The notes beneath the pieces were generated by a model that was not told where the DNA came from, searched no databases, and saw only the letters and a program-made list of their open reading frames with translations. Shown piece by piece: positions 5,262 through 62,483 of a stretch of DNA of 64,000 nucleotides (the stretch's first letter is position 1; every line of letters starts with the position of its first letter). The position numbers were made by a program, and so were the translations under genes. The stretch lies in contig JANXCS010000007.1 in assembly GCA_025060105.1 (NCBI GenBank), forward strand, positions 1-64,000, given 5' to 3'. The DNA comes from Pseudothermotoga sp. GTDB taxonomy: Bacteria; Thermotogota; Thermotogae; Thermotogales; DSM-5069.

Positions 5262-6440
5262 TCATTCAATGAAAATCTTCTTGCCAAGCTCTGCCGAAAC
5301 ATAAGCCGCATACATCACCAACATCGTTTCTTTTGCAAGTTGGAAACCACTCAAAACATCTTTACCCTCCAGAACAGCACATGCAAAGTCTTTCATTTCC
5401 TGTGGATAACCCCTCGTCCAGAACTCGTCTGGCGAAGGAAAAGTGTAACCAGCTTTGGTCTCGAGCTTTTCGCTGATGTACTCATCACCCCAAACATTTT
5501 CATTCGGTGCGAAAGCCACCATAGAATTGTTGGGTGTAATGTTGGCGATTATCATACCTTTGGAACCAAAAAGTTCTATTCTGTTTTTCACACCCCCCAG
5601 ACTCACATCGGTCGAAAAAACCACCGACCTAGAACCATCCTCGAACTCAAGAACAACAACTGACCAATCCTCGACATCGTGCCAGGAACTAACCACGTAA
5701 CAAGGTTTCCCCTGCAGCGTTTTCATCTTGGTCACATTGCCGACGCTCGCCAGCACCGCCACTGGTTTTATAGGCTTGCCGTCCCTCATGAAGCCTTCAT
5801 AATGTTTCAAATGAATCACAGTAGCGATTGGGTGCGAACCCAGGCGCATTAAACTTCCCCCACCGGAGGTTTTCCATCTTCGTGAGTAAGCCGCTTGAGA
5901 ACCTGAATGGCTACACTCAGCGCGCAACTCGAACACAACCATGTCGGAGACCTTCATCATCCGCTTCATTTTTTCAACGGCCGGTGCATATACCCAATTT
6001 TCGGCATACATGAACTTGCTACCAGATTTGTTGATTTTTTCCTCCAACAGACTGATCTTCTCTTTCACTTTTTCGAACATGTGCGCCTTTGACAGCAAAC
6101 CAACATCTTCAACGCCTGGTTTATCCTCTCCGAAATAGCCTGTCAATGGTTTTTCGCAAATGATATGCTTATGATTATCAGCAGCACAGATTATCACGGC
6201 ATCATGCAAGTTCGTCGGTGTGCAAACATCAACAACATCGATCTCCGAGCTCGCACAAAGTTGTTCGAAATTGTCAAATACACGGGGTATTCCATACTCT
6301 CTAGCGAACCTCTCAGCGTTTTCTCTGTGCCCAGAGCATACTCCGACTACGTCGACGATTTGATGATTTTCCCGGAAGGCAGCCATATGTATTTTGGCTA
6401 TGAAACCAGCTCCTACGATTCCGATTCGAACCTTTTTCAC
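5262..6440 (-). CDS. Gfo/Idh/MocA family NAD(P)-dependent oxidoreductase
   Basis: A 392-residue two-domain dehydrogenase. The N-terminal Rossmann fold has VRIGIVGAGFIAKIHMAAF, followed by VDVCTPTNLHD and HIICEKPL with the conserved EKP lysine. The C-terminal substrate domain includes GGGSLMRLGSHPIATVIHLK. Members oxidise or reduce sugars, inositols or related polyols. The start is GTG at 6440 behind GAGGGGG, 13 bases after the M24 gene stop; a longer frame reaching 6494 overlaps that gene and lacks a better SD site. Position in the tct cluster suggests it acts on a compound taken up by that transporter. Confidence 0.9.
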   Translation of the reverse strand: MKKVRIGIVGAGFIAKIHMAAFRENHQIVDVVGVCSGHRENAERFAREYGIPRVFDNFEQLCASSEIDVVDVCTPTNLHDAVIICAADNHKHIICEKPLTGYFGEDKPGVEDVGLLSKAHMFEKVKEKISLLEEKINKSGSKFMYAENWVYAPAVEKMKRMMKVSDMVVFELRAECSHSGSQAAYSRRWKTSGGGSLMRLGSHPIATVIHLKHYEGFMRDGKPIKPVAVLASVGNVTKMKTLQGKPCYVVSSWHDVEDWSVVVLEFEDGSRSVVFSTDVSLGGVKNRIELFGSKGMIIANITPNNSMVAFAPNENVWGDEYISEKLETKAGYTFPSPDEFWTRGYPQEMKDFACAVLEGKDVLSGFQLAKETMLVMYAAYVSAELGKKIFIE

Positions 6441-6453
6441 GCGTATAACCCCC

Positions 6454-7551
6454 TCACAGAATGAGCATGCCTGGTCTAATGAAGTGAACACCATTCACTT
6501 TCAGTTCTAATCTTGGAAAAACGAATGGTTTGGTGATCATCAGCAGGCCAGATTCAGTGACGATGAAACCATCTTCAGATTTAGTACCACTGATCGTGGG
6601 ATTCCAACAAAACGCTTGATTCTTTCTCACGATCTGCTGACAATCCGGTGTGACTCTGATGTCTCTCGCGTAGTACCCCATTGGTCCACCTTGATGGTGC
6701 AACTTCCACTCATCGTGATAACCACGTTTTTTGTATTCTTCTATCGCTGCAAGCACAGGTAGATTCATCTTCTCTCCGATCTTCGTTCGAGATATCATGA
6801 TACATTCGATCTCAACGTTCTCTTCATACTGTTTCATCAATTGTTTTGGTGGTTCACCGAAGTGAACCATGCGTGTCACCGTGGTGATCAAACCTTTGTA
6901 TCTCGCATTGACGGAAACCATGACCAATCTTTCTACCTTCTTCATAGTCGGTATAGGATGTCTATAGAGCCTCGCTCGGTCGTCTGCAGCAACCATGAAC
7001 CCTGTAGGATCTATCCTGTACTTCCAAAGTTCTGCACTGATTCTACCCGCTATTTCTGCCTCGACATCGCCTGGTTTTGTGAACAAAAGAACACTTTCCA
7101 AAGCCCTAGAAAGCTTTTCACCGAGGTACAAGTACCGTTCGATCTCTGACTCAGTCAATTCGTATCTGAGTTCATTGAATTCACCTTCAACATGAATCAA
7201 ACCCGGTATAGGGCTGTCACACCCAACTTTTTCTCCGGCGATCTTCTTGACGATCTCAAGCTCTCTGTTCTCGTACCACTCATGGGAAACAACTTCAAAA
7301 CCCAATCCGTCTATTTCCTCATCCTTCATTCTCGGAGCTTCAATCTTGTTGGCGATCAAGTAACAATTATCCTTAGTCACGAGCACTGAGGTCACACCCA
7401 TCTCGGTTGCAATGCCAACCATGTTGAGACCACCAGCTGTGATCCAAGAAAAATTCGGTTGCTTTTTAATCAGCATTCCAGATAAACCTTTTCCGTCCAT
7501 GAACTTTCTGACGCGTTCAAGCTTGATCTTCACTTCTTCAAGCCTAGTCAT
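6454..7551 (-). CDS. M24 family metallohydrolase (creatinase/Xaa-Pro peptidase type)
   Basis: A 365-residue protein with a creatinase-like N-terminal domain (GLSGMLIKKQPNFSWITAGG) and a pita-bread domain (GDVEAEIAGRISAELWKY onward). The M24 metal ligands are poorly kept: an HHQGGPMGY segment is present, but the usual Asp pair is hard to find around FMVAADDRARLYRHP. It may be a non-peptidase member or a hydrolase of a small amide. It overlaps the tctA stop by four bases (ATGA), so it is translationally coupled to the permease. Confidence 0.8.
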   Translation of the reverse strand: MTRLEEVKIKLERVRKFMDGKGLSGMLIKKQPNFSWITAGGLNMVGIATEMGVTSVLVTKDNCYLIANKIEAPRMKDEEIDGLGFEVVSHEWYENRELEIVKKIAGEKVGCDSPIPGLIHVEGEFNELRYELTESEIERYLYLGEKLSRALESVLLFTKPGDVEAEIAGRISAELWKYRIDPTGFMVAADDRARLYRHPIPTMKKVERLVMVSVNARYKGLITTVTRMVHFGEPPKQLMKQYEENVEIECIMISRTKIGEKMNLPVLAAIEEYKKRGYHDEWKLHHQGGPMGYYARDIRVTPDCQQIVRKNQAFCWNPTISGTKSEDGFIVTESGLLMITKPFVFPRLELKVNGVHFIRPGMLIL

Positions 7552-53799: not shown

Positions 53800-55680
53800 T
53801 TGAACGGAAGTAGACCGAACTACATCTCACTCATTTTCGCAGCACTCGTCATACTATCGATCTTTTGGCTTGTTCGTTCACTCTATAGCCCCAGCACCGG
53901 TGTGTCGAAGATGAGTTTCAGTGATTTCATACAAATAGTCGAAACAGATCCAGGTCGCATCGCAGAAGTTGTTGTCAGAGACGACGGAACAATTAGAGTT
54001 ATATCCAAACGTGGCGAGTATTACGAAATCTATGCTCCGTGGTTCTCACAAGATTCCCAGACTATAAAGATGCTGAGTGAGAAAGGCATACGCGTTACAG
54101 GTGAGAAAGGCCTGAGCAGTTCGTTCTGGATCAACGTTATAGGAAACGTCCTGTTCATAGGATTTTTGCTGTTCATGTTTTTCTTCATGATGAGAGCGAT
54201 CTCTGGACGAAACAACCAAGCCTTCACATTCACACGGAGCAGAGCACAGATGGTGAGGCCAGGTCAACAACGCGTTACGTTCAACGATGTGGCTGGCGTT
54301 GACGAAGCCATCGAAGAGTTGAAAGAAACGGTACTGTTTTTGAAAGATCCAGGCCGTTTTGCACGCATAGGCGCGAGGATGCCGAAAGGCATCCTACTCG
54401 TTGGTCCTCCTGGCACCGGTAAAACGTTGCTCGCTAGAGCGGTCGCTGGAGAAGCGAATGTTCCATTCTTCCACATAAGCGGTTCGGATTTCGTTGAATT
54501 GTTCGTCGGTGTAGGTGCAGCGCGTGTGCGAGATCTCTTTGCCCAGGCGAAAGCCAATGCTCCTTGCATAGTGTTCATCGACGAAATAGACGCAGTTGGA
54601 AGACACAGAGGTGCGGGTCTCGGTGGCGGACACGATGAAAGAGAACAGACACTCAACCAACTTTTGGTTGAAATGGATGGTTTCGACATCAATCAAGGCA
54701 TCGTGGTCATGGCCGCAACGAACAGGCCCGATATACTCGATCCAGCTTTGCTTAGACCTGGAAGGTTCGACAAAAAGGTCGTCTTGGATGTACCCGACGT
54801 TAAAGGAAGAGAAGCGATTCTGAAAATACACATCAGAAACAAACCACTCGCCGAGGATGTGGACTTAAAGGTGCTCGCACAGAGAACCACCGGCTTTGTA
54901 GGGGCAGATCTTGAAAATCTAGTGAACGAAGCAGCACTTTTAGCAGCTAGGGCTGGCAGAGACAAGATCACCATGGCAGACTTTGAGGAAGCCATCGACA
55001 GAGTGATCGCTGGTCCAGCAAGAAAATCGCGTATAATCAGTCCCAGAGAGAAAAGGATCGTGGCTTACCATGAAGTCGGGCACGCCATCGTTTCGAGTCT
55101 GCTACCCAACGCAGATCCAGTACACAGGATTTCCATCATTCCGAGAGGTTATCGTGCTTTAGGTTATACCTTACAACTCCCCGCTGAAGACAGATACATC
55201 GTCACGAAAAATGAGTTGCTCGATCAAATCACCGCACTCTTGGGTGGTCGAGCAGCAGAAGAGATCATCTTCAGTGAAATTTCAACTGGAGCTGCTTCAG
55301 ACATCGAGCGAGCCACTGAGTTGGCAAGAAAGATGGTTTGCCAACTTGGCATGAGTGAGCGGCTTGGACCTCTAGTCTGGGGCAAGGCTGAGCAGGAGAT
55401 CTTCTTGGGAAAGGAACTCACCAGGCTTAGAAATTACAGCGAAGAAGTCGCAAGCGAAATAGACGAAGAAGTGAAGAGGATCGTTACTGGATGCTATGAA
55501 AGGGCAAAACAAATGTTGATGGAGCACAGAAAACAACTCGACGAACTTGCAGAACTTTTGCTTGAGAGAGAAGTCATAGAAGGTGAAGAACTCAGGAAAG
55601 TTTTGAAGAAGGAATTGAGTGAGGAAGTGATGAACGGTGAGAAACTTGGAACAGTTGCTCGGGATGGGAAAAACGGTTGA
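53800..55680 (+). CDS. ftsH: ATP-dependent zinc metalloprotease FtsH
   Basis: A 626-residue membrane AAA+ protease. Two membrane segments (about residues 8-26 and 108-132) flank a small external domain. The AAA module (Walker [13 protein letters not shown] at about 202-212, Walker [13 protein letters not shown], the pore motif [11 protein letters not shown] and [21 protein letters not shown]) is followed by the zinc protease motif [10 protein letters not shown]. It degrades misfolded and short-lived membrane and cytosolic proteins. TTG at 53800 lies behind AGGAGG. The 3' end overlaps the thioesterase gene by 44 bases. Confidence 0.97.
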
Positions 55681-56038
55681 ATTCACCATCGATGAGAGTT
55701 TAACGTGGCGTGAGGATCGGGAAATGGAAATGTTAGAGTTGGCGAGTACTTCTGGCCTTTGTGCCCATGTTTTTCACATTGCTTACGATTTGATTCAACC
55801 ATTTCTGTCAGAGAGCGAAGTTTCTGTGGTGACCGAAGCGAATGTTAGGCACGTTGCGCCCATCAGAGTTGGAGAAACAGTCGCAATGGGTGTGAAGATC
55901 CTAGGAGTGACAGATAACAAGATCAAGATCCGCGGTGTTGTGATGAGAGGTGAGACAAAAATACTTGAAGTTGAATTTGTGAGGGCGGTCGTTTCAAGGA
56001 ATTATCTCAGGAGGGCTGCCCTTGAGAAGACCACGTAA
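55637..56038 (+). CDS. thioesterase, hotdog fold (fluoroacetyl-CoA thioesterase-like)
   Basis: A 133-residue single-hotdog protein: [40 protein letters not shown], the VTEANVRHVAPIRVGETVAM strand and KILEVEFVRAVVSRNYLRRA. It resembles acyl-CoA thioesterases of the FlK group, but the active-site Thr/Glu set cannot be confirmed by eye. GTG at 55637 starts within the ftsH 3' end; the next gene starts before its stop. Confidence 0.8.
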   Translation: MRNLEQLLGMGKTVEFTIDESLTWREDREMEMLELASTSGLCAHVFHIAYDLIQPFLSESEVSVVTEANVRHVAPIRVGETVAMGVKILGVTDNKIKIRGVVMRGETKILEVEFVRAVVSRNYLRRAALEKTT

Positions 56039-57467
56039 CGCTAGGGACGTTAGGGAGCTTGGCAAGATCGATCTTCTCAGATCGAGTGAAAAACATATAG
56101 AAGAAATAGATTTGAAGGGCGATCTGATGGTCGCCCTTATTTTTCCAAACAACTATGAGATTGCTGTTTCAAATTTAGGATTCAACCTGGTATGGAAATA
56201 CCTCAACCAGCTCGAGCATGTTCGTTGCGAACGGTTTTTCTTTGATGAAACCTTTGAAAGGTTTTACTCCTTAGATACCCGTACCCCCATAGATCAGTTC
56301 AGGATATGGGCCTTCACGTTCCACTTCGAAAACGATCTTACAAACATTTTAAAGTTGCTATTGAAGAAATCTGTACCACTCAGGAATGTTGATCGTTCAG
56401 AATCACACCCAGTTTTGTTGTTCGGTGGTTCTCTGTGCTACATAGACTTGCCTGTACTCAAACCGCTCGCCGACGTTGTCTTGCACGGAGACATCGAACC
56501 AATGTTGGAGGACTTGAACAGATCGATTTATCCAACCACTAGAGCTGAATTGATCGAGATGTTTTCAAAATTCCCTTTTTCAACTGTGCCCATCTTGGGA
56601 AAGAGGTTCGAAAGAATCGCTTTATGTCAAGATCTTGACCGTTTTCCTCCGATTTCGCCGTTGATCCCAAAGCACAGTGAATTTGCCGATAAATTGTTGG
56701 TAGAGATAGAAAGAGGCTGTGTACATAGATGCAGTTATTGTATGATGGGGAGAGTAAAAAAACCCGCAAGATTTCTGAGCCTTAAGACAATCGAAAAAAC
56801 GGTTGAAAAAAATCGATCGATCGGCTTGATCGCTTCAAACGTGACCGATTATCCATGGCTGGACGAACTTATAGACCTATTGGAGCAAAGAAGAGTTTCT
56901 GTGTCGGTTTCTTCACTGAGAATAGACCGATTGAGCGAAAAATTTTTGAAATTTTTGAGAAAACATCAAAGAAGTCTCACAGTAGCTATAGAAAGCGCAA
57001 GTGAGAGGATCAGAAATATGCTGAAGAAGAATTTAACCGACTCTCAAATAGAAAAAGCTCTATCTTCAGCAAAAGACGTTGGTTTCGAAGAACTGAAGAT
57101 GTACTTCATGTTCGGTTTCGACGAAGAAACTGAAGACGACCTGAAGGCTATCGGGGATTTTGTACGACGTACACTCAAGTTTGGTTTTAAATCGATAAAG
57201 CTTTCTATAAATCCATTCGTACCGAAACGAGGAACTGAACTTGAAAATAGACGAATGCAAGATGAGAAAACTCTGCGCGAAAAAATGAGGATCATCTCTT
57301 CTTACTTGCCAAAACATATCAAGGCGCAGTTCGAAAGTCTTCGAGAGTGCAAATTCCAATACATGGTGAACAACTTAGAAGAGGATTTGGCAAACGAAAT
57401 TCTTGAAAGGATCCAAAACACAAAGCTCTTAGATGAAACTTTGTCTGATTTGATCGAAGCAGTATAA
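56022..57467 (+). CDS. radical SAM protein with B12-binding-like N-terminal domain
   Basis: A 481-residue protein. The N-terminal half (GDLMVALIFPNNYEIAVSNL, FAFTFHFEND-like segments) resembles the cobalamin-binding-like domain of TIGR03960-type radical SAM proteins. The radical SAM core has the cluster motif ERGCVHRCSYCMMG (C-x3-C-x2-C), then LIASNVTDYPWLDELIDLL, VAIESASERIRNMLKKN and MYFMFGFDEETEDDL. The chemistry is unknown. The B12 ligand motif DxHxxG is not visible. It overlaps the thioesterase stop by 17 bases. Confidence 0.87.
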   Translation: MRRPRNARDVRELGKIDLLRSSEKHIEEIDLKGDLMVALIFPNNYEIAVSNLGFNLVWKYLNQLEHVRCERFFFDETFERFYSLDTRTPIDQFRIWAFTFHFENDLTNILKLLLKKSVPLRNVDRSESHPVLLFGGSLCYIDLPVLKPLADVVLHGDIEPMLEDLNRSIYPTTRAELIEMFSKFPFSTVPILGKRFERIALCQDLDRFPPISPLIPKHSEFADKLLVEIERGCVHRCSYCMMGRVKKPARFLSLKTIEKTVEKNRSIGLIASNVTDYPWLDELIDLLEQRRVSVSVSSLRIDRLSEKFLKFLRKHQRSLTVAIESASERIRNMLKKNLTDSQIEKALSSAKDVGFEELKMYFMFGFDEETEDDLKAIGDFVRRTLKFGFKSIKLSINPFVPKRGTELENRRMQDEKTLREKMRIISSYLPKHIKAQFESLRECKFQYMVNNLEEDLANEILERIQNTKLLDETLSDLIEAV

Positions 57468-57506
57468 TGAATGTGAAAACTGATTCACAAGACAGGGGGA
57501 AGAATT

Positions 57507-58703
57507 CTGAGGAGAAATCCAAAACGCTCCGATGGTAAGAAAACTTTTTCCAATCTTCTTAAGTCCGCGTGTGAACTCTTTGCGACACATGGCTACCACG
57601 GAGTATCTGTTCCGATGATTTCGAAAAAAGCCGGTGTGAAACCTTCCACATTTTATCAGTACTTCAACGACAAAGAGGCGATCTATGAAAAATTGATTTC
57701 AGATGCGTTCAATTTGTTCACTGAGTACCTGGGGAAAGTCAATGATTCAAATGCTCAAAGTATCGTTGAAAGTTTCATTCGATCTTATGTGGCATTTTTT
57801 TCGAACCACACTCAATATTTTCGCATCCTACATGAAGCAGTGTACCTCAAAAAAAACGTCCACAAGAAACTCGAATCCATTCTCAGATCATGTGTCATCG
57901 AAAAGTTATTGCCAAAAGAAGATGAAAAGGAAGCTAAAGTCGTTACGTGGTTTGTCACCGGTCCCATAAGGTTTGCAAGTATTTTCAAATCACTCAGAAA
58001 GGACAACTGCATTGAAGAATCTATGGTGGAAGACTTCATCGAATTCGCACTGAGTGGCATAGATACCAACGACCATATACTCAATTTGCAAGTCTTTTCC
58101 GTGGATGTGAAACCTCTCGTTTTAGAAACAAACTCAACTAAAGCACGACTCCTTCAAGCGGCGGAGAAACTCTTTGGGAAGTACGGTTATCGAAAAACTA
58201 TGATAAGCGACATCACAAAATCTGCCAGTGTTGCTGCTGGGACTTTCTATGTGTACTTTCCAAGCAAGGAAGCTATACTGGAGGAACTGGTGATGACAAC
58301 CAACAGAAATTTGAGGCTCACTATTGCGAGCGTGATCAAGAATTTTCCTGACAGGCGTGACAGTGAAATAGCGGGTTACAACGCTTTTTTAAGGTTTTTT
58401 TTGAATCATTCGAACATGTACTTGATCGTCAGACAAGCTGAGTTCTTCAATCCAGATATTTCCCGAGCTTATTATGAAAAGATCTTCAACAGCTATCTTC
58501 CACCACTGACCAAAGCGATTGAAGCTGGGATGTTCAAACCCTTTAAACCCGAGAATTTGGCGATAGCCCTCATGGGCATCGGACATTTCATGGGTGAAGA
58601 TCTGGTTGTGTACAGTAAAACTTCGGCAGATGAGATCAACGATTATCTTTCCCTCCTCTCGGAATACCTGTTCAAAGGTGTCCTATCGCGAACAGCTACG
58701 TAG
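57507..58703 (+). CDS. tandem double-TetR transcriptional regulator
   Basis: Two complete TetR-family units in one open frame. The first HTH is HGYHGVSVPMISKKAGVKPS followed by TFYQYFNDKEAIYEKLISDA. The second is GKYGYRKTMISDITKSASVA followed by AGTFYVYFPSKEAILEELVM. Each has its own helical ligand-binding region of about 130 residues. Standard starts occur only at ATG 57615, which would cut off the first part of HTH 1 (FSNLLKSACELFATHG). The frame is open back to 57477, and an SD-like AGGGGG at 57494-57499 points to CTG at 57507 (or ATT at 57504). It probably controls the divergent-free downstream operon from 58893. Confidence 0.85.
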   Translation: MRRNPKRSDGKKTFSNLLKSACELFATHGYHGVSVPMISKKAGVKPSTFYQYFNDKEAIYEKLISDAFNLFTEYLGKVNDSNAQSIVESFIRSYVAFFSNHTQYFRILHEAVYLKKNVHKKLESILRSCVIEKLLPKEDEKEAKVVTWFVTGPIRFASIFKSLRKDNCIEESMVEDFIEFALSGIDTNDHILNLQVFSVDVKPLVLETNSTKARLLQAAEKLFGKYGYRKTMISDITKSASVAAGTFYVYFPSKEAILEELVMTTNRNLRLTIASVIKNFPDRRDSEIAGYNAFLRFFLNHSNMYLIVRQAEFFNPDISRAYYEKIFNSYLPPLTKAIEAGMFKPFKPENLAIALMGIGHFMGEDLVVYSKTSADEINDYLSLLSEYLFKGVLSRTAT

Positions 58704-58892
58704 AGTAAGAACAAGCAAGAAATAGAACAAGAGAGAATTTGATCTTGAGTTGGTATTGATCTTAAAATATCAACCATTGTTGTGATTATTTTCCACTTTT
58801 CAATGTTGCATTTTGGTTTCGAAAATTGATAATATAGTTGATGAATCAGATGTCAGATTGAATAGTGGTTCACCTTACGGGGAGGGAATAGA
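58704..58892 (+). promoter_or_regulatory. upstream region and promoter of the KASIII-CoA transferase-liv operon
   Basis: About 190 AT-rich bases. TTGCAT (58806-58811) and TAATAT (58830-58835) with an 18-base spacer form a likely promoter. No clean long palindrome for TetR binding was found by eye. An SD GGGGAGGG precedes the next start. Confidence 0.55.
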
Positions 58893-59924
58893 TTGCGAGA
58901 TCACGTTGGCATAGCAGGGATAGGAACATACCTTCCAAGAAGATACGTCACCGCGAGAGAATTGGCTTCCTCCATCGGCATAGATGAAAAAATCATCGTA
59001 GAAAAATTCGGTTTAAAGGGAAAATATCTGCCAACAGAAGAGGACACAACGAGTTTCATGGGGATCATGGCCGCGAAAAAAGCCTTAGAAAATGCGCACA
59101 CAAATCCTGAGGAAGTGGATATTGTCATTTGGAACGGGGCTCAGCACAAAGACTATCCTTGCTGGCTTGCTTGCACAAAGGTGGCGCACGAGATCGGTGC
59201 TAAAAAAGCCTGGGCGTTCGACATGGAGGCAATGTGTGGCTCGATGATAGTGGGACTTCAAGTAGCAAGATCGCTCATGCTAGTCGAAAAGAATGTAAAT
59301 ACAACCTTGCTGGTGAGTGGTTATCGAAATGTAGACCTTGTTAACTACGCTCACAGGCCAACTTCTTTCATGTTTGACATCGCTGCCAGCGGAGCCGCAG
59401 TGGTGCTCAAGAAAAATTACGGCAAAAATGTACTACTAGGTATCTCCAACGTAGTAGATGGTTCTTTCGCCGAGGACTGTATCGTGCCGGTGGGAGGTAC
59501 AAAGAAATGGCCAATGAGACCAGAAGATCTAAACGACTATTATTTTCACCTCACAGACTCAGACACTTTCAAGGAAAGATTGGGCAATGTTACTCTGAAG
59601 AACTTTTATTATGTCATAGACGATGCCTTAAAGAAGAGCGGTTTTTCAAGAAAAGATATATCTTACCTTGCAATACTTCATTTTAAGCGCTCGGCTCACA
59701 TGGAAGTACTCAATGAACTTGGTTTGAGAGAAGAACAATCTTTCTACCTTGAAGATTACGGTCACATGGGGCAGAACGATCAAATTTTTTCCCTCGAGGA
59801 GGGTTTGAGGAGAGGAAAAGTAAAAGACGGTGACATAGTGGTACTTGTGGGCGCAGGTGTTGGTTGGACCTGGAACGCCGCAGTGATTAGGTGGGGAAAA
59901 GCTAGAGAACCGATGAGTTGGTGA
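58893..59924 (+). CDS. beta-ketoacyl-ACP synthase III-like protein
   Basis: A 343-residue thiolase-fold protein. GIAGIGTYLPRRYVTARELA is the usual KASIII start. The nucleophile Cys is at residue 115 (FDMEAMCGSMIVGLQVARSL), and a His at 263 (YLAILHFKRSAHM) matches the KASIII PHQAN His. Where KASIII enzymes have HGNTSAAS with the catalytic Asn, this protein has YGHMGQNDQI (residues 289-298), so that Asn is replaced by His. It may condense or cleave CoA thioesters rather than start fatty-acid synthesis. TTG at 58893 lies behind GGGGAGGG. First gene of an operon with a CoA-transferase and a Liv transporter. Confidence 0.85.
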   Translation: MRDHVGIAGIGTYLPRRYVTARELASSIGIDEKIIVEKFGLKGKYLPTEEDTTSFMGIMAAKKALENAHTNPEEVDIVIWNGAQHKDYPCWLACTKVAHEIGAKKAWAFDMEAMCGSMIVGLQVARSLMLVEKNVNTTLLVSGYRNVDLVNYAHRPTSFMFDIAASGAAVVLKKNYGKNVLLGISNVVDGSFAEDCIVPVGGTKKWPMRPEDLNDYYFHLTDSDTFKERLGNVTLKNFYYVIDDALKKSGFSRKDISYLAILHFKRSAHMEVLNELGLREEQSFYLEDYGHMGQNDQIFSLEEGLRRGKVKDGDIVVLVGAGVGWTWNAAVIRWGKAREPMSW

Positions 59925-59936
59925 GGGGGAATGAAC

Positions 59937-61238
59937 ATGAAATGGAAAGAGGTGTATGCGAAAAAACTTGTCGATATCGAGACAGTCTTGAGCCTTGTTC
60001 AATCCAATCAAACCATAGTTGTGGGTATGACACCTATGGAACCGAAGGTTTTTCTTCGAAATCTACATAAAATTGCAGATAAAGTCGAGAACGTTACGGT
60101 GTTCACTTGCCTGAACATGGAAAATTATCCTTTTTACATGAATAAAGAATACAACAAAAACTTTCAAAATGCATCGTGGTACTTTGGCGGTTCAAACAGA
60201 GAGGCTGTGAAGAACGGCTATGGTACCGTAACGTACGTTCCTAACAACCTTCACCAAGCAGGGACAAACCTCATAGAAAGCAGAGAGATCGATCTCTTCG
60301 TTGGCGTTGCATCTCCAATGGATAAGAACGGTTTCTTTACACTATCAGCCTCCGTTGTTTATGAAAAAGATGTGATTGAGAAAGCAAAGAGAGTAGTCTT
60401 GGAGGTCAATCCCAAAGCTCCCAGAACACACGGTGACACACAAGTGCATGTTAATGATGTAGATTGTATCGTTGAAGTCGATTACGATTTACCAGAAGTA
60501 GAGCTAGTTGAGCCTACCGATGTAGAAGCAAAGATTGCAGAGCATGTGAGCCAACTCATTGAAGATGGTTCAACGATTCAAATTGGCATCGGTGGTATAC
60601 CCAACGCCGTTGCAAAGCTGCTCTCAAGTAAGAAAGATCTCGGAGTTCACACGGAGATGCTGACCGAGTCCATGATAGATCTCTTCGAATTGGGGGTGAT
60701 AACGAACAAGAGAAAGACCCTGTGGAACGGTAAGTTCGTCTGCACTTTCGCCTTCGGCACCAAAAGACTTTACAGCTTTGTGGATGACAACCCTTCCGTC
60801 ATGTTCCTGCGCGGCAGATATGTGAACGATCCTTATGTGATCGCACAGAACGAGAAAATGGTGAGCATTAACACTGCACTCATGGTTGATCTGACTGGAA
60901 ATGTGTGTTCTGAGGCCCTGGGGACGCAACATTACAGTGGTACAGGTGGCCAACTCGACACCCACCGTGGAGCAGTGAAGAGCAAAGGTGGTAAGGGTAT
61001 CATCGCTTTGAGATCCACTGCCAAGAACGGAACCGTTTCCACGATCGTGCCACTGCTGCCACAAGGTTCTCCCATCACGGTTCCCAGGCAAGAGCTCGAC
61101 TACGTTGTGACTGAATGGGGTGTGGCACACGTTAGGGGAAAGACCATCAGAGAAAGGACCTTAGCACTGATTTCTATAGCACATCCGAATTTCAGGAATG
61201 CTCTCATTTCCGAAGCGAAGAAATTGGACTTAATCTGA
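59937..61238 (+). CDS. acetyl-CoA hydrolase/CoA-transferase family protein
   Basis: A 433-residue class I-type CoA-transferase. Motifs are QIGIGGIPNAVAKLLSSKKD, the catalytic Glu region GVHTEMLTESMIDLFE, SINTALMVDLTGNVCSEALG and HYSGTGGQLDTHRGA. It resembles 4-hydroxybutyrate or butyrate:acetate CoA-transferases. It would activate a carboxylic acid brought in by the neighbouring transporter, or release one from CoA. ATG at 59937 lies eight bases after GAGGGGG. Confidence 0.9.
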   Translation: MKWKEVYAKKLVDIETVLSLVQSNQTIVVGMTPMEPKVFLRNLHKIADKVENVTVFTCLNMENYPFYMNKEYNKNFQNASWYFGGSNREAVKNGYGTVTYVPNNLHQAGTNLIESREIDLFVGVASPMDKNGFFTLSASVVYEKDVIEKAKRVVLEVNPKAPRTHGDTQVHVNDVDCIVEVDYDLPEVELVEPTDVEAKIAEHVSQLIEDGSTIQIGIGGIPNAVAKLLSSKKDLGVHTEMLTESMIDLFELGVITNKRKTLWNGKFVCTFAFGTKRLYSFVDDNPSVMFLRGRYVNDPYVIAQNEKMVSINTALMVDLTGNVCSEALGTQHYSGTGGQLDTHRGAVKSKGGKGIIALRSTAKNGTVSTIVPLLPQGSPITVPRQELDYVVTEWGVAHVRGKTIRERTLALISIAHPNFRNALISEAKKLDLI

Positions 61239-61256
61239 AAGAAAGGGGTGAGTTGG

Positions 61257-62483
61257 ATGAAAAAGCTTTTGGTGGCTTTCTTTGTGTTACTCACTTTGAT
61301 GGCTACGGCAAAAACGATCAAGATTGGAGCGATTCTACCGCTATCTGATATTACGGGAAGACAAGCAGCAAACGCTATGAAGCTCGCTGTGAAGGAGATC
61401 AACGAAGCTGGTGGCGTGCTTGGTATGCAGATTGAGCTGTTCATCATGGACGATGAAATGAAACCTGAAAAAGGTGCAGCGGCAGTCGATAGACTTGCAA
61501 CTGTGGAAAAGGTTGACTTTTTCGTTGGAGGGATGTCCAGTAGCGTCCATCTGGCACAGATACCGATTCTGAAGAAATACCAAAAAATAACGGTGTGGAT
61601 AGGTGCAGCCTCTTACAGATGTGAAGAAGCAATAGGTCCAGATTCCGATTGGTATTTCCACCTGCATCCTTGGGACTATCTACAAGGTGAAAGCTATGCA
61701 CACGGATGGCGAGCGATCACTCAAAAATATCCACAGGTAAAAATCGAGAAGATATTCTTGGCGTACGAAGAGGGGGCTTTCGGTACCAGTTCATTCAAGT
61801 CTTACCAAGATGAGTTCGAGCTTGCAAAGAAGGGCACAGGAGTTTGGGCAGGTTTAATGAAAGATTTGAAAGGTGCACCGTTCAAGAGTGCAGCTCTGGG
61901 TGGCGGTGATTACAGGGCCGTCTTGCTACAAGCAAAACAGTACGATCCAGATTTGTTCATCTGGGCAGGTTACGATGCTGATGCAATACCCATGTTAGTT
62001 CAAGCAAAGGAAATAGGTTTCGCACCAAAGTTATTCGTCGGAGCACCTCCAGGATGGCCTGCTGACTTTGGCAAGAACCCTCTATCGCACGGTGTTGTCC
62101 TTTACGGCATGTGGGCTCCCACTCTGAAAGAAGTCAGTCCGATAGCAAAACATTTCTGGAATGCTTACGTGAAAGAGTTCAATGAAGAACCTGCGACGTA
62201 TTTCGCTCCCCTCGGTTATACCAACATAATGTTCCTTATTGAAGGTATCAAGAAAGCGGGTTCATTGGATAAAGATGCAATAATCAAAGCTCTCAGAGAG
62301 ATCGAGTACGATTCACCTGTTGGAGGCGTTTTGAAGATTGCACCGAGCAGAATCATAAAGAATCAAGGTTTCAGAGCTCAAAAGATCTTACAGTGGCAGA
62401 ACGGAGTCCAACACGTTATCTGGCCCTTCGAGTATGCCACTGCCCAGCTGATCTACCCCTTCCCAGGTTGGCAAGGCAGATGA
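61257..62483 (+). CDS. Liv-type ABC transporter substrate-binding protein
   Basis: A 408-residue family-6 binding protein. The signal peptide (LLVAFFVLLTLMATAKT) is followed by KIGAILPLSDITGRQAANAM, VKEINEAGGVLGMQIELFIM, VDFFVGGMSSSVHLAQIPIL and the hinge IFLAYEEGAFGTSSFKSY. The family takes up branched-chain amino acids, amides or other small acids; the ligand is not shown. The CoA-enzyme context suggests an organic acid. ATG at 61257 lies behind AAAGGGGTG. Confidence 0.92.
   Translation: MKKLLVAFFVLLTLMATAKTIKIGAILPLSDITGRQAANAMKLAVKEINEAGGVLGMQIELFIMDDEMKPEKGAAAVDRLATVEKVDFFVGGMSSSVHLAQIPILKKYQKITVWIGAASYRCEEAIGPDSDWYFHLHPWDYLQGESYAHGWRAITQKYPQVKIEKIFLAYEEGAFGTSSFKSYQDEFELAKKGTGVWAGLMKDLKGAPFKSAALGGGDYRAVLLQAKQYDPDLFIWAGYDADAIPMLVQAKEIGFAPKLFVGAPPGWPADFGKNPLSHGVVLYGMWAPTLKEVSPIAKHFWNAYVKEFNEEPATYFAPLGYTNIMFLIEGIKKAGSLDKDAIIKALREIEYDSPVGGVLKIAPSRIIKNQGFRAQKILQWQNGVQHVIWPFEYATAQLIYPFPGWQGR

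Follow-up and report, generated by a model that had tools for sequence, protein, structure and literature searches.

The window (the whole 64,000-nucleotide stretch analysed) carries towards its end a regulator gene, the signals that precede it, and the beginning of a predicted operon of acyl-CoA and transport genes. The features are as follows.

57441–57468, forward strand: predicted regulator promoter, TTGTCT-16-TATAAT (consensus scan, 10/12 matches)
57470–57487, forward strand: predicted operator 1, AATGTGAAAACTGATTCA, just downstream of the regulator -10 box and matching the 18-bp element
57495–57500, forward strand: Shine-Dalgarno sequence GGGGGA (read from the sequence; kept in relatives)
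57507–58703, forward strand: tandem TetR regulator gene (398 amino acids, CTG start, TAG stop)
57507–57542, forward strand: basic N-terminal arm RRxPxRxDGK (alignment; conserved; lost if the start were ATG 57615)
57555–57689, forward strand: HTH1 (TetR_N, residues 17–61; Pfam and conservation), recognition helix KPSTFYQYF
57693–58076, forward strand: regulatory domain 1 (residues 63–190), eroded and without CoA arginines
58137–58277, forward strand: HTH2 (residues 211–257; second Pfam stretch and conservation), recognition helix AAGTFYVYF
58278–58682, forward strand: regulatory domain 2 (residues 258–392), FadR(Sa)-like with R270 and R283 (phmmer to 6el2, E 5.8e-25)
58806–58833, forward strand: likely operon promoter, TTGCAT-16-GATAAT (read by eye; absent from the consensus-scan list)
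58842–58859, reverse strand: predicted operator 2, AATCTGACATCTGATTCA, before the downstream operon and just downstream of its -10 box
58893–59924, forward strand: KAS III-like synthase (PRK06840; NCBIfam 474.7 bits, cut-off 315; synteny), first gene of the predicted operon
59931–61238, forward strand: acetyl-CoA hydrolase/CoA-transferase family protein (Pfam, NCBIfam, synteny)
61248–62483, forward strand: Liv-type ABC substrate-binding protein, with permeases and ATPases beyond the window end

The frame between 57507 and 58703 is open throughout and encodes one polypeptide of 398 residues that holds two complete TetR units, as a sequence-only reading of the locus had claimed. The working form of a TetR-type repressor is normally a pair of identical copies. 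When the profile check proposed in that reading was run on the full frame, TetR_N (Pfam) matched in two separate stretches with a total of 111.8 bits (E 1.2e-32, cut-off 24), and the NCBIfam full-length TetR models likewise matched twice along the 398 residues; the TetR_N score, above the gathering score, places the protein among the TFRs, and its two complete units make it a double TFR. The only ATG, GTG or TTG start in the frame, ATG 57615, is located within HTH1, so translation from it would cut this domain. The codon aligned with CTG 57507 is TTG in five of eight close relatives (L004, L005, L006, L007 and L009), ATG in L008 and L010 and GTG in L011, and in each of them it is preceded by GGGGGA, GGAGG or a similar Shine-Dalgarno-like sequence. 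The conserved basic arm, moreover, starts directly after the CTG codon. From these comparisons CTG 57507, the start suggested earlier, is well supported as the site of initiation. Arginines of the equivalent N-terminal arm touch DNA in Mce3R (PMC11667970). A TATAAT at the position of the regulator promoter is also found in most relatives of the same family.

The single-frame protein of ~400 residues is present in all ten family relatives searched (50–76% identity) and in ~25 further genomes of the class, so the search for other double-TetR proteins of this length in Thermotogae, which the earlier reading had recommended, found them in ~35 genomes. An assembly artefact or a fortuitous join of two genes has a negligible chance of explaining the frame and was rejected: the ~35 genomes were independently assembled and share this single frame, and each half groups with the counterpart halves from other species. 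Specifically, in a tree built from the separated halves, each half clusters across the class with those of its own kind, N or C, which indicates that the fusion predates these families; the exception is one long-branched Spirochaetales protein that falls among the halves of class members. The copy of a draft genome from this family (L013, G005:C95:3719-4891) is interrupted in frame by a TAG and is either a pseudogene or affected by a sequencing error.

The two halves have been conserved to different degrees: mean identity across the class is highest in HTH2 (54.0%), followed by regulatory domain 2 (45.9%) and HTH1 (43.8%), and lowest in regulatory domain 1 (26.5%). The closest solved relative of the C half is FadR of Sulfolobus acidocaldarius (FadR(Sa); PDB 6el2 and 6en8), which aligns over 160 gapless residues (E 5.8e-25) and matches the N half more weakly (E 5.5e-9). 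FadR(Sa) represses a fatty-acid gene cluster and is a single unit that binds a 16-bp dyad motif as a homodimer (PMC6449355); in comparison, the fused protein possesses an extra unit with an altered recognition helix and without the CoA arginines. At the position equivalent to Phe52, a base-contacting residue of FadR(Sa) (PMC6449355), the N halves have Gln, Lys or Arg in Thermotogota and also His in delta-type members, the C halves carry Val, Leu, Thr or Ile, and Leu, Val or Thr occurs in all but one of the 71 single-unit ORFs that the pattern picked out. Mutation of Gly48 abolishes DNA binding by FadR(Sa) (PMC6449355), and its equivalent is invariant in HTH2 (G245) and mostly replaced in HTH1. 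As for ligand recognition, Arg73 and Arg86 of FadR(Sa) contact CoA, and their alanine mutants lose the response to acyl-CoA (PMC6449355). In the gapless alignment these residues correspond to R270 (conserved in at least 90% of the C halves) and R283 (invariant), while the N half has no counterpart of either in the alignment; Lys77 and Arg132 of FadR(Sa) are not kept in the 398-residue protein. We infer that both HTHs work and, because only the C half retains the acyl-CoA arginines, that there is one acyl-CoA-type ligand site, in the C half. The suggestion that the fused pair might sense two ligands is accordingly disfavoured, given also the erosion of the N-half regulatory domain. That erosion, together with the faster evolution of the N halves, could be expected if the C half alone were functional and the N half a decaying copy kept for stability; we regard this as very improbable, since HTH1 has been intact since before the families split, it is conserved across the class with F25, S34, I38, F49, Y50 and K56 invariant, and the basic arm has been kept.

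The regulator is followed by genes for the KAS III-like synthase, the CoA-transferase, the Liv-type ABC transporter and a FabG-like SDR, and then by a second Liv transporter, another KAS III and alpha/beta hydrolases. This association of the regulator with acyl-CoA and Liv genes is conserved across the class, with a thiolase gene inside the operon in other families, and single-unit relatives also adjoin KAS III, SDR and Liv genes. A 16-bp pattern, TNTGANANNNGATTCA, first found 5' of the regulator gene, recurs at the regulator and operon promoters in relatives. Alignment of 38 collected sites revealed additional conserved bases that were absent from the search pattern, AA before it and a T in its middle, giving the 18-bp element AANNTGANANNTGATTCA, which is conserved, partly asymmetric and found in relatives of several families. 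When its 12 fixed bases were scored, at least 11 were matched in 37 of 43 promoters and in 0.23% of shuffled promoters, in a set that includes four thiolase promoters because they contain the motif and several distant genomes whose promoter anchors were placed with the site position known. A less biased figure comes from the tandem-gene genomes outside the family, where ~18 of 25 have an exact pattern match within 2.5 kb of the gene; the pattern search returns ~3–4 exact matches per 2-Mb genome. Among the tandem-gene genomes, a strong site is absent from the regulator promoters of L041 and L042 and from L044. The other three exact matches in the genome of the window lie inside genes, look like chance occurrences and were discarded as sites.

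With the element at the operon promoter and the synteny kept throughout the class, the adjacent acyl-CoA/transport operon stands as the likely target that it was first taken for. Four genomes of genus g6 have a further copy of the motif in front of a thiolase gene, which ties the motif to the acyl-CoA pathway of the operon. The thiolase gene on contig C4 of the window's genome has no good upstream site and was dropped as a regulon member there, leaving g6 as the only place with a thiolase site. The gene content suggests a repressor that acts on the uptake and turnover of an acyl, keto or hydroxy acid of short or medium chain length. The proposed regulon would cover an uncharacterised acyl-CoA pathway of Thermotogota, comprising KAS III, CoA-transferase, FabG-like reductase and a Liv-type ABC transporter, with thiolase in some genera.

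Several genomes of different families have two copies of the element in direct orientation and exactly 23 bp apart (L026 391/414, L028 268/291, L030 250/273, L032 286/309, L025 3739/3762 and L051 3719/3742), an arrangement that possibly reflects cooperative binding by two fused chains. Other peculiarities of the neighborhood concern its genes. Past the window end, at L033:14635-16332 (contig C7 70134–71831), a LivM-like ABC permease is fused in frame to an alpha/beta hydrolase, the hydrolase part of which weakly matches PHA depolymerase; the fusion is kept in the operon in most genomes with the tandem TetR. Upstream of the regulator, a small FlK-like (fluoroacetyl-CoA-type) thioesterase at 55637–56038 precedes a radical SAM gene, the two showing 28–34% identity to syntenic counterparts of the same genus, figures that are unreliable because the query was mis-framed.

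A single-chain (monomer) AlphaFold2 prediction was computed without templates. The whole-chain model (pLDDT 93.7, pTM 0.91) confidently packs the halves against each other within a single chain, although a monomer prediction would be compatible with other quaternary forms as well. Its best solved match in Foldseek is Mce3R of Mycobacterium tuberculosis (E 1.3e-10), and VIA-align superimposes the two over 351 residues of both halves (Z 26.3, rmsd 4.5, 16% identity), while the following matches cover the C half alone; further structures matched by the model include FadR(Sa), Bacillus FadR and EthR, and its regulatory domains have the all-helical TetR fold. Mce3R (Rv1963c, PDB 9b7y) is likewise a chain of ~400 residues with two TetR units and non-identical HTHs, so that the double-TetR architecture is not unprecedented, and its cryo-EM structure shows that it binds DNA as a one-chain pseudo-dimer, with one proposed ligand site (PMC11667970). 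It adjoins a lipid-related operon and is autoregulated (PMC11667970), features that have predicted counterparts here. The differences are also clear. Mce3R comes from another phylum, its 16% identity to the 398-residue protein is accompanied by a sequence match through the HTH only, and its halves resemble KstR2 and Fad35R rather than FadR(Sa); since sequence matching extends through the HTH alone, the Mce3R and Thermotogota fusions were probably independent. Mce3R has as its operator an asymmetric stretch of 25 bp that occurs twice, 53 bp apart, compared with the predicted 18-bp element, which has a residual dyad. Homodimerization of the pseudo-dimer via helix 15 is a further trait by which the Mce3R kind is defined. 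A further ~204 putative double TFRs have been listed in Actinomycetes (PMC11667970), which share the two-unit chain in another phylum and are likened here by architecture, not by sequence.

The best reading of the model is that the two units pack as an asymmetric one-chain pseudo-dimer, as in Mce3R. The earlier proposal of a pseudo-dimer with two different half-sites gains from that structural match, from the differing recognition helices and from the partly asymmetric element found between 58704 and 58892, the interval that the proposal had singled out. Symmetric pairing between chains, N with N and C with C, would instead produce two ordinary TetR dimers with two palindromes and two ligands. 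Such pairing was seriously considered for Mce3R until its structure was solved, and sites 23 bp apart in some genomes could suit a larger assembly; we nevertheless judge it unlikely, as the modelled halves pack on each other within a chain and the model matches Mce3R, the promoters carry one type of element and not two different palindromes, and regulatory domain 1, besides its erosion, has no CoA arginines.

Close inspection of the 18-bp element shows that it retains a dyad core, TGA-N8-TCA, and that its inner and outer bases differ between the halves; a strictly non-palindromic operator, our first reading, was toned down once this core was seen. In single-unit relatives from other phyla, a palindromic 29-bp form, AANNTGANANNTGANTCANNTNTCANNTT, lies near the regulator gene and amounts to two overlapping 18-bp units. 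Part of the asymmetry of the element is already present within these symmetric sites. Perfect symmetric forms of either half-site gave only weak partial matches at loci of other phyla. With sites picked by the left unit and the centre alone, the right arm scores 4.5/6 in single-unit relatives, 2.7/6 in tandem members and 1.7/6 in shuffles (singles versus tandem, Mann-Whitney p 5e-7, uncorrected for relatedness). The second arm has thus been mostly lost at the sites of the fused proteins, with L133 and L135 among the few tandem sites that keep 4–5 of the 6 bases. As FadR(Sa) binds some of its operators as two dimers (PMC6449355), it is plausible that the 29-bp site is read in the same way.

A tentative history, to which we give somewhat less than even credence, is that the ancestral single units bound the 29-bp palindrome as two overlapping dimers, and that in the fused protein the recognition helix of HTH1 changed (V/L to Gln/Lys/Arg/His), leaving one 18-bp half to be read and the second arm to be lost. 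If true, the fusion would record a change from a symmetric to an asymmetric operator that could be compared in the fusions of other phyla, including a Firmicutes case with sister halves. The sites could also be degenerate 29-bp double sites occupied by two fused chains, so that their asymmetry would say nothing about HTH1 versus HTH2. The retention of right-arm bases at a few tandem sites such as L133 and L135, and the two dimers that FadR(Sa) places on some operators, would fit; the drop of the right arm towards the shuffled level and the distinct recognition helix of HTH1 do not, and make such double occupancy quite improbable.

Taken as a whole, we consider it probable that the gene encodes a repressor that belongs with Mce3R among the double TetR-family proteins and whose two units come from a FadR(Sa)-like subfamily. 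In this proposal, the two units would pack together in one chain as a pseudo-dimer, as modelled, and HTH1 and HTH2, with their different recognition helices, would read the non-identical halves of the 18-bp operator. Since the predicted operators lie just past the -10 boxes of the promoters of the regulator (57470–57487) and of the KAS III/CoA-transferase/Liv-ABC/SDR operon (58842–58859), the bound protein would prevent transcription. Its release would come from a ligand that enters the pocket of the C half only, most likely an acyl-CoA or beta-keto/hydroxyacyl-CoA related to the operon's pathway. The residual dyad of the operator, the partial asymmetry already seen in the 29-bp sites and the few tandem-gene genomes that lack a strong site weigh against the proposal.

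The fused family is a broadly conserved clade of the known double-TFR kind that derives from a different TetR subfamily than Mce3R. We found no paper on a Thermotogota double TetR in the open-access literature searched, and as far as that literature goes the clade is undescribed. Mce3R, the only double TetR repressor with a solved structure that we found, is a pathogen protein with few orthologues; the Thermotogota clade is kept throughout a class of thermophiles, its single-unit relatives can be traced, and an operator is predicted for both states. For these reasons it constitutes a natural test of how homodimeric repressors become one-chain pseudo-dimers and lose the symmetry of their operators.

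A scan for relatives that covered genomes of 84,980 species identified many single-unit proteins resembling the C half and, outside the class, tandem members in Desulfobacterota/Myxococcota-type bins, a Spirochaetales bin and a Firmicutes bin. In a tree of a smaller set, the N halves of Thermotogota and delta-type members group with a support of 95 and the C halves with 44, so that a single origin of these tandem members is neither shown nor excluded. In the protein of the Firmicutes bin (L071, tandem ORF 5971–7263) the two halves form a fully supported sister pair, pointing to a probable separate and more recent internal duplication within the same subfamily; a topology that joins its N half to those of the Thermotogota and delta-type members is not rejected (p-AU 0.06). 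The L071 tandem gene adjoins a Liv operon and has an operator-like element upstream.
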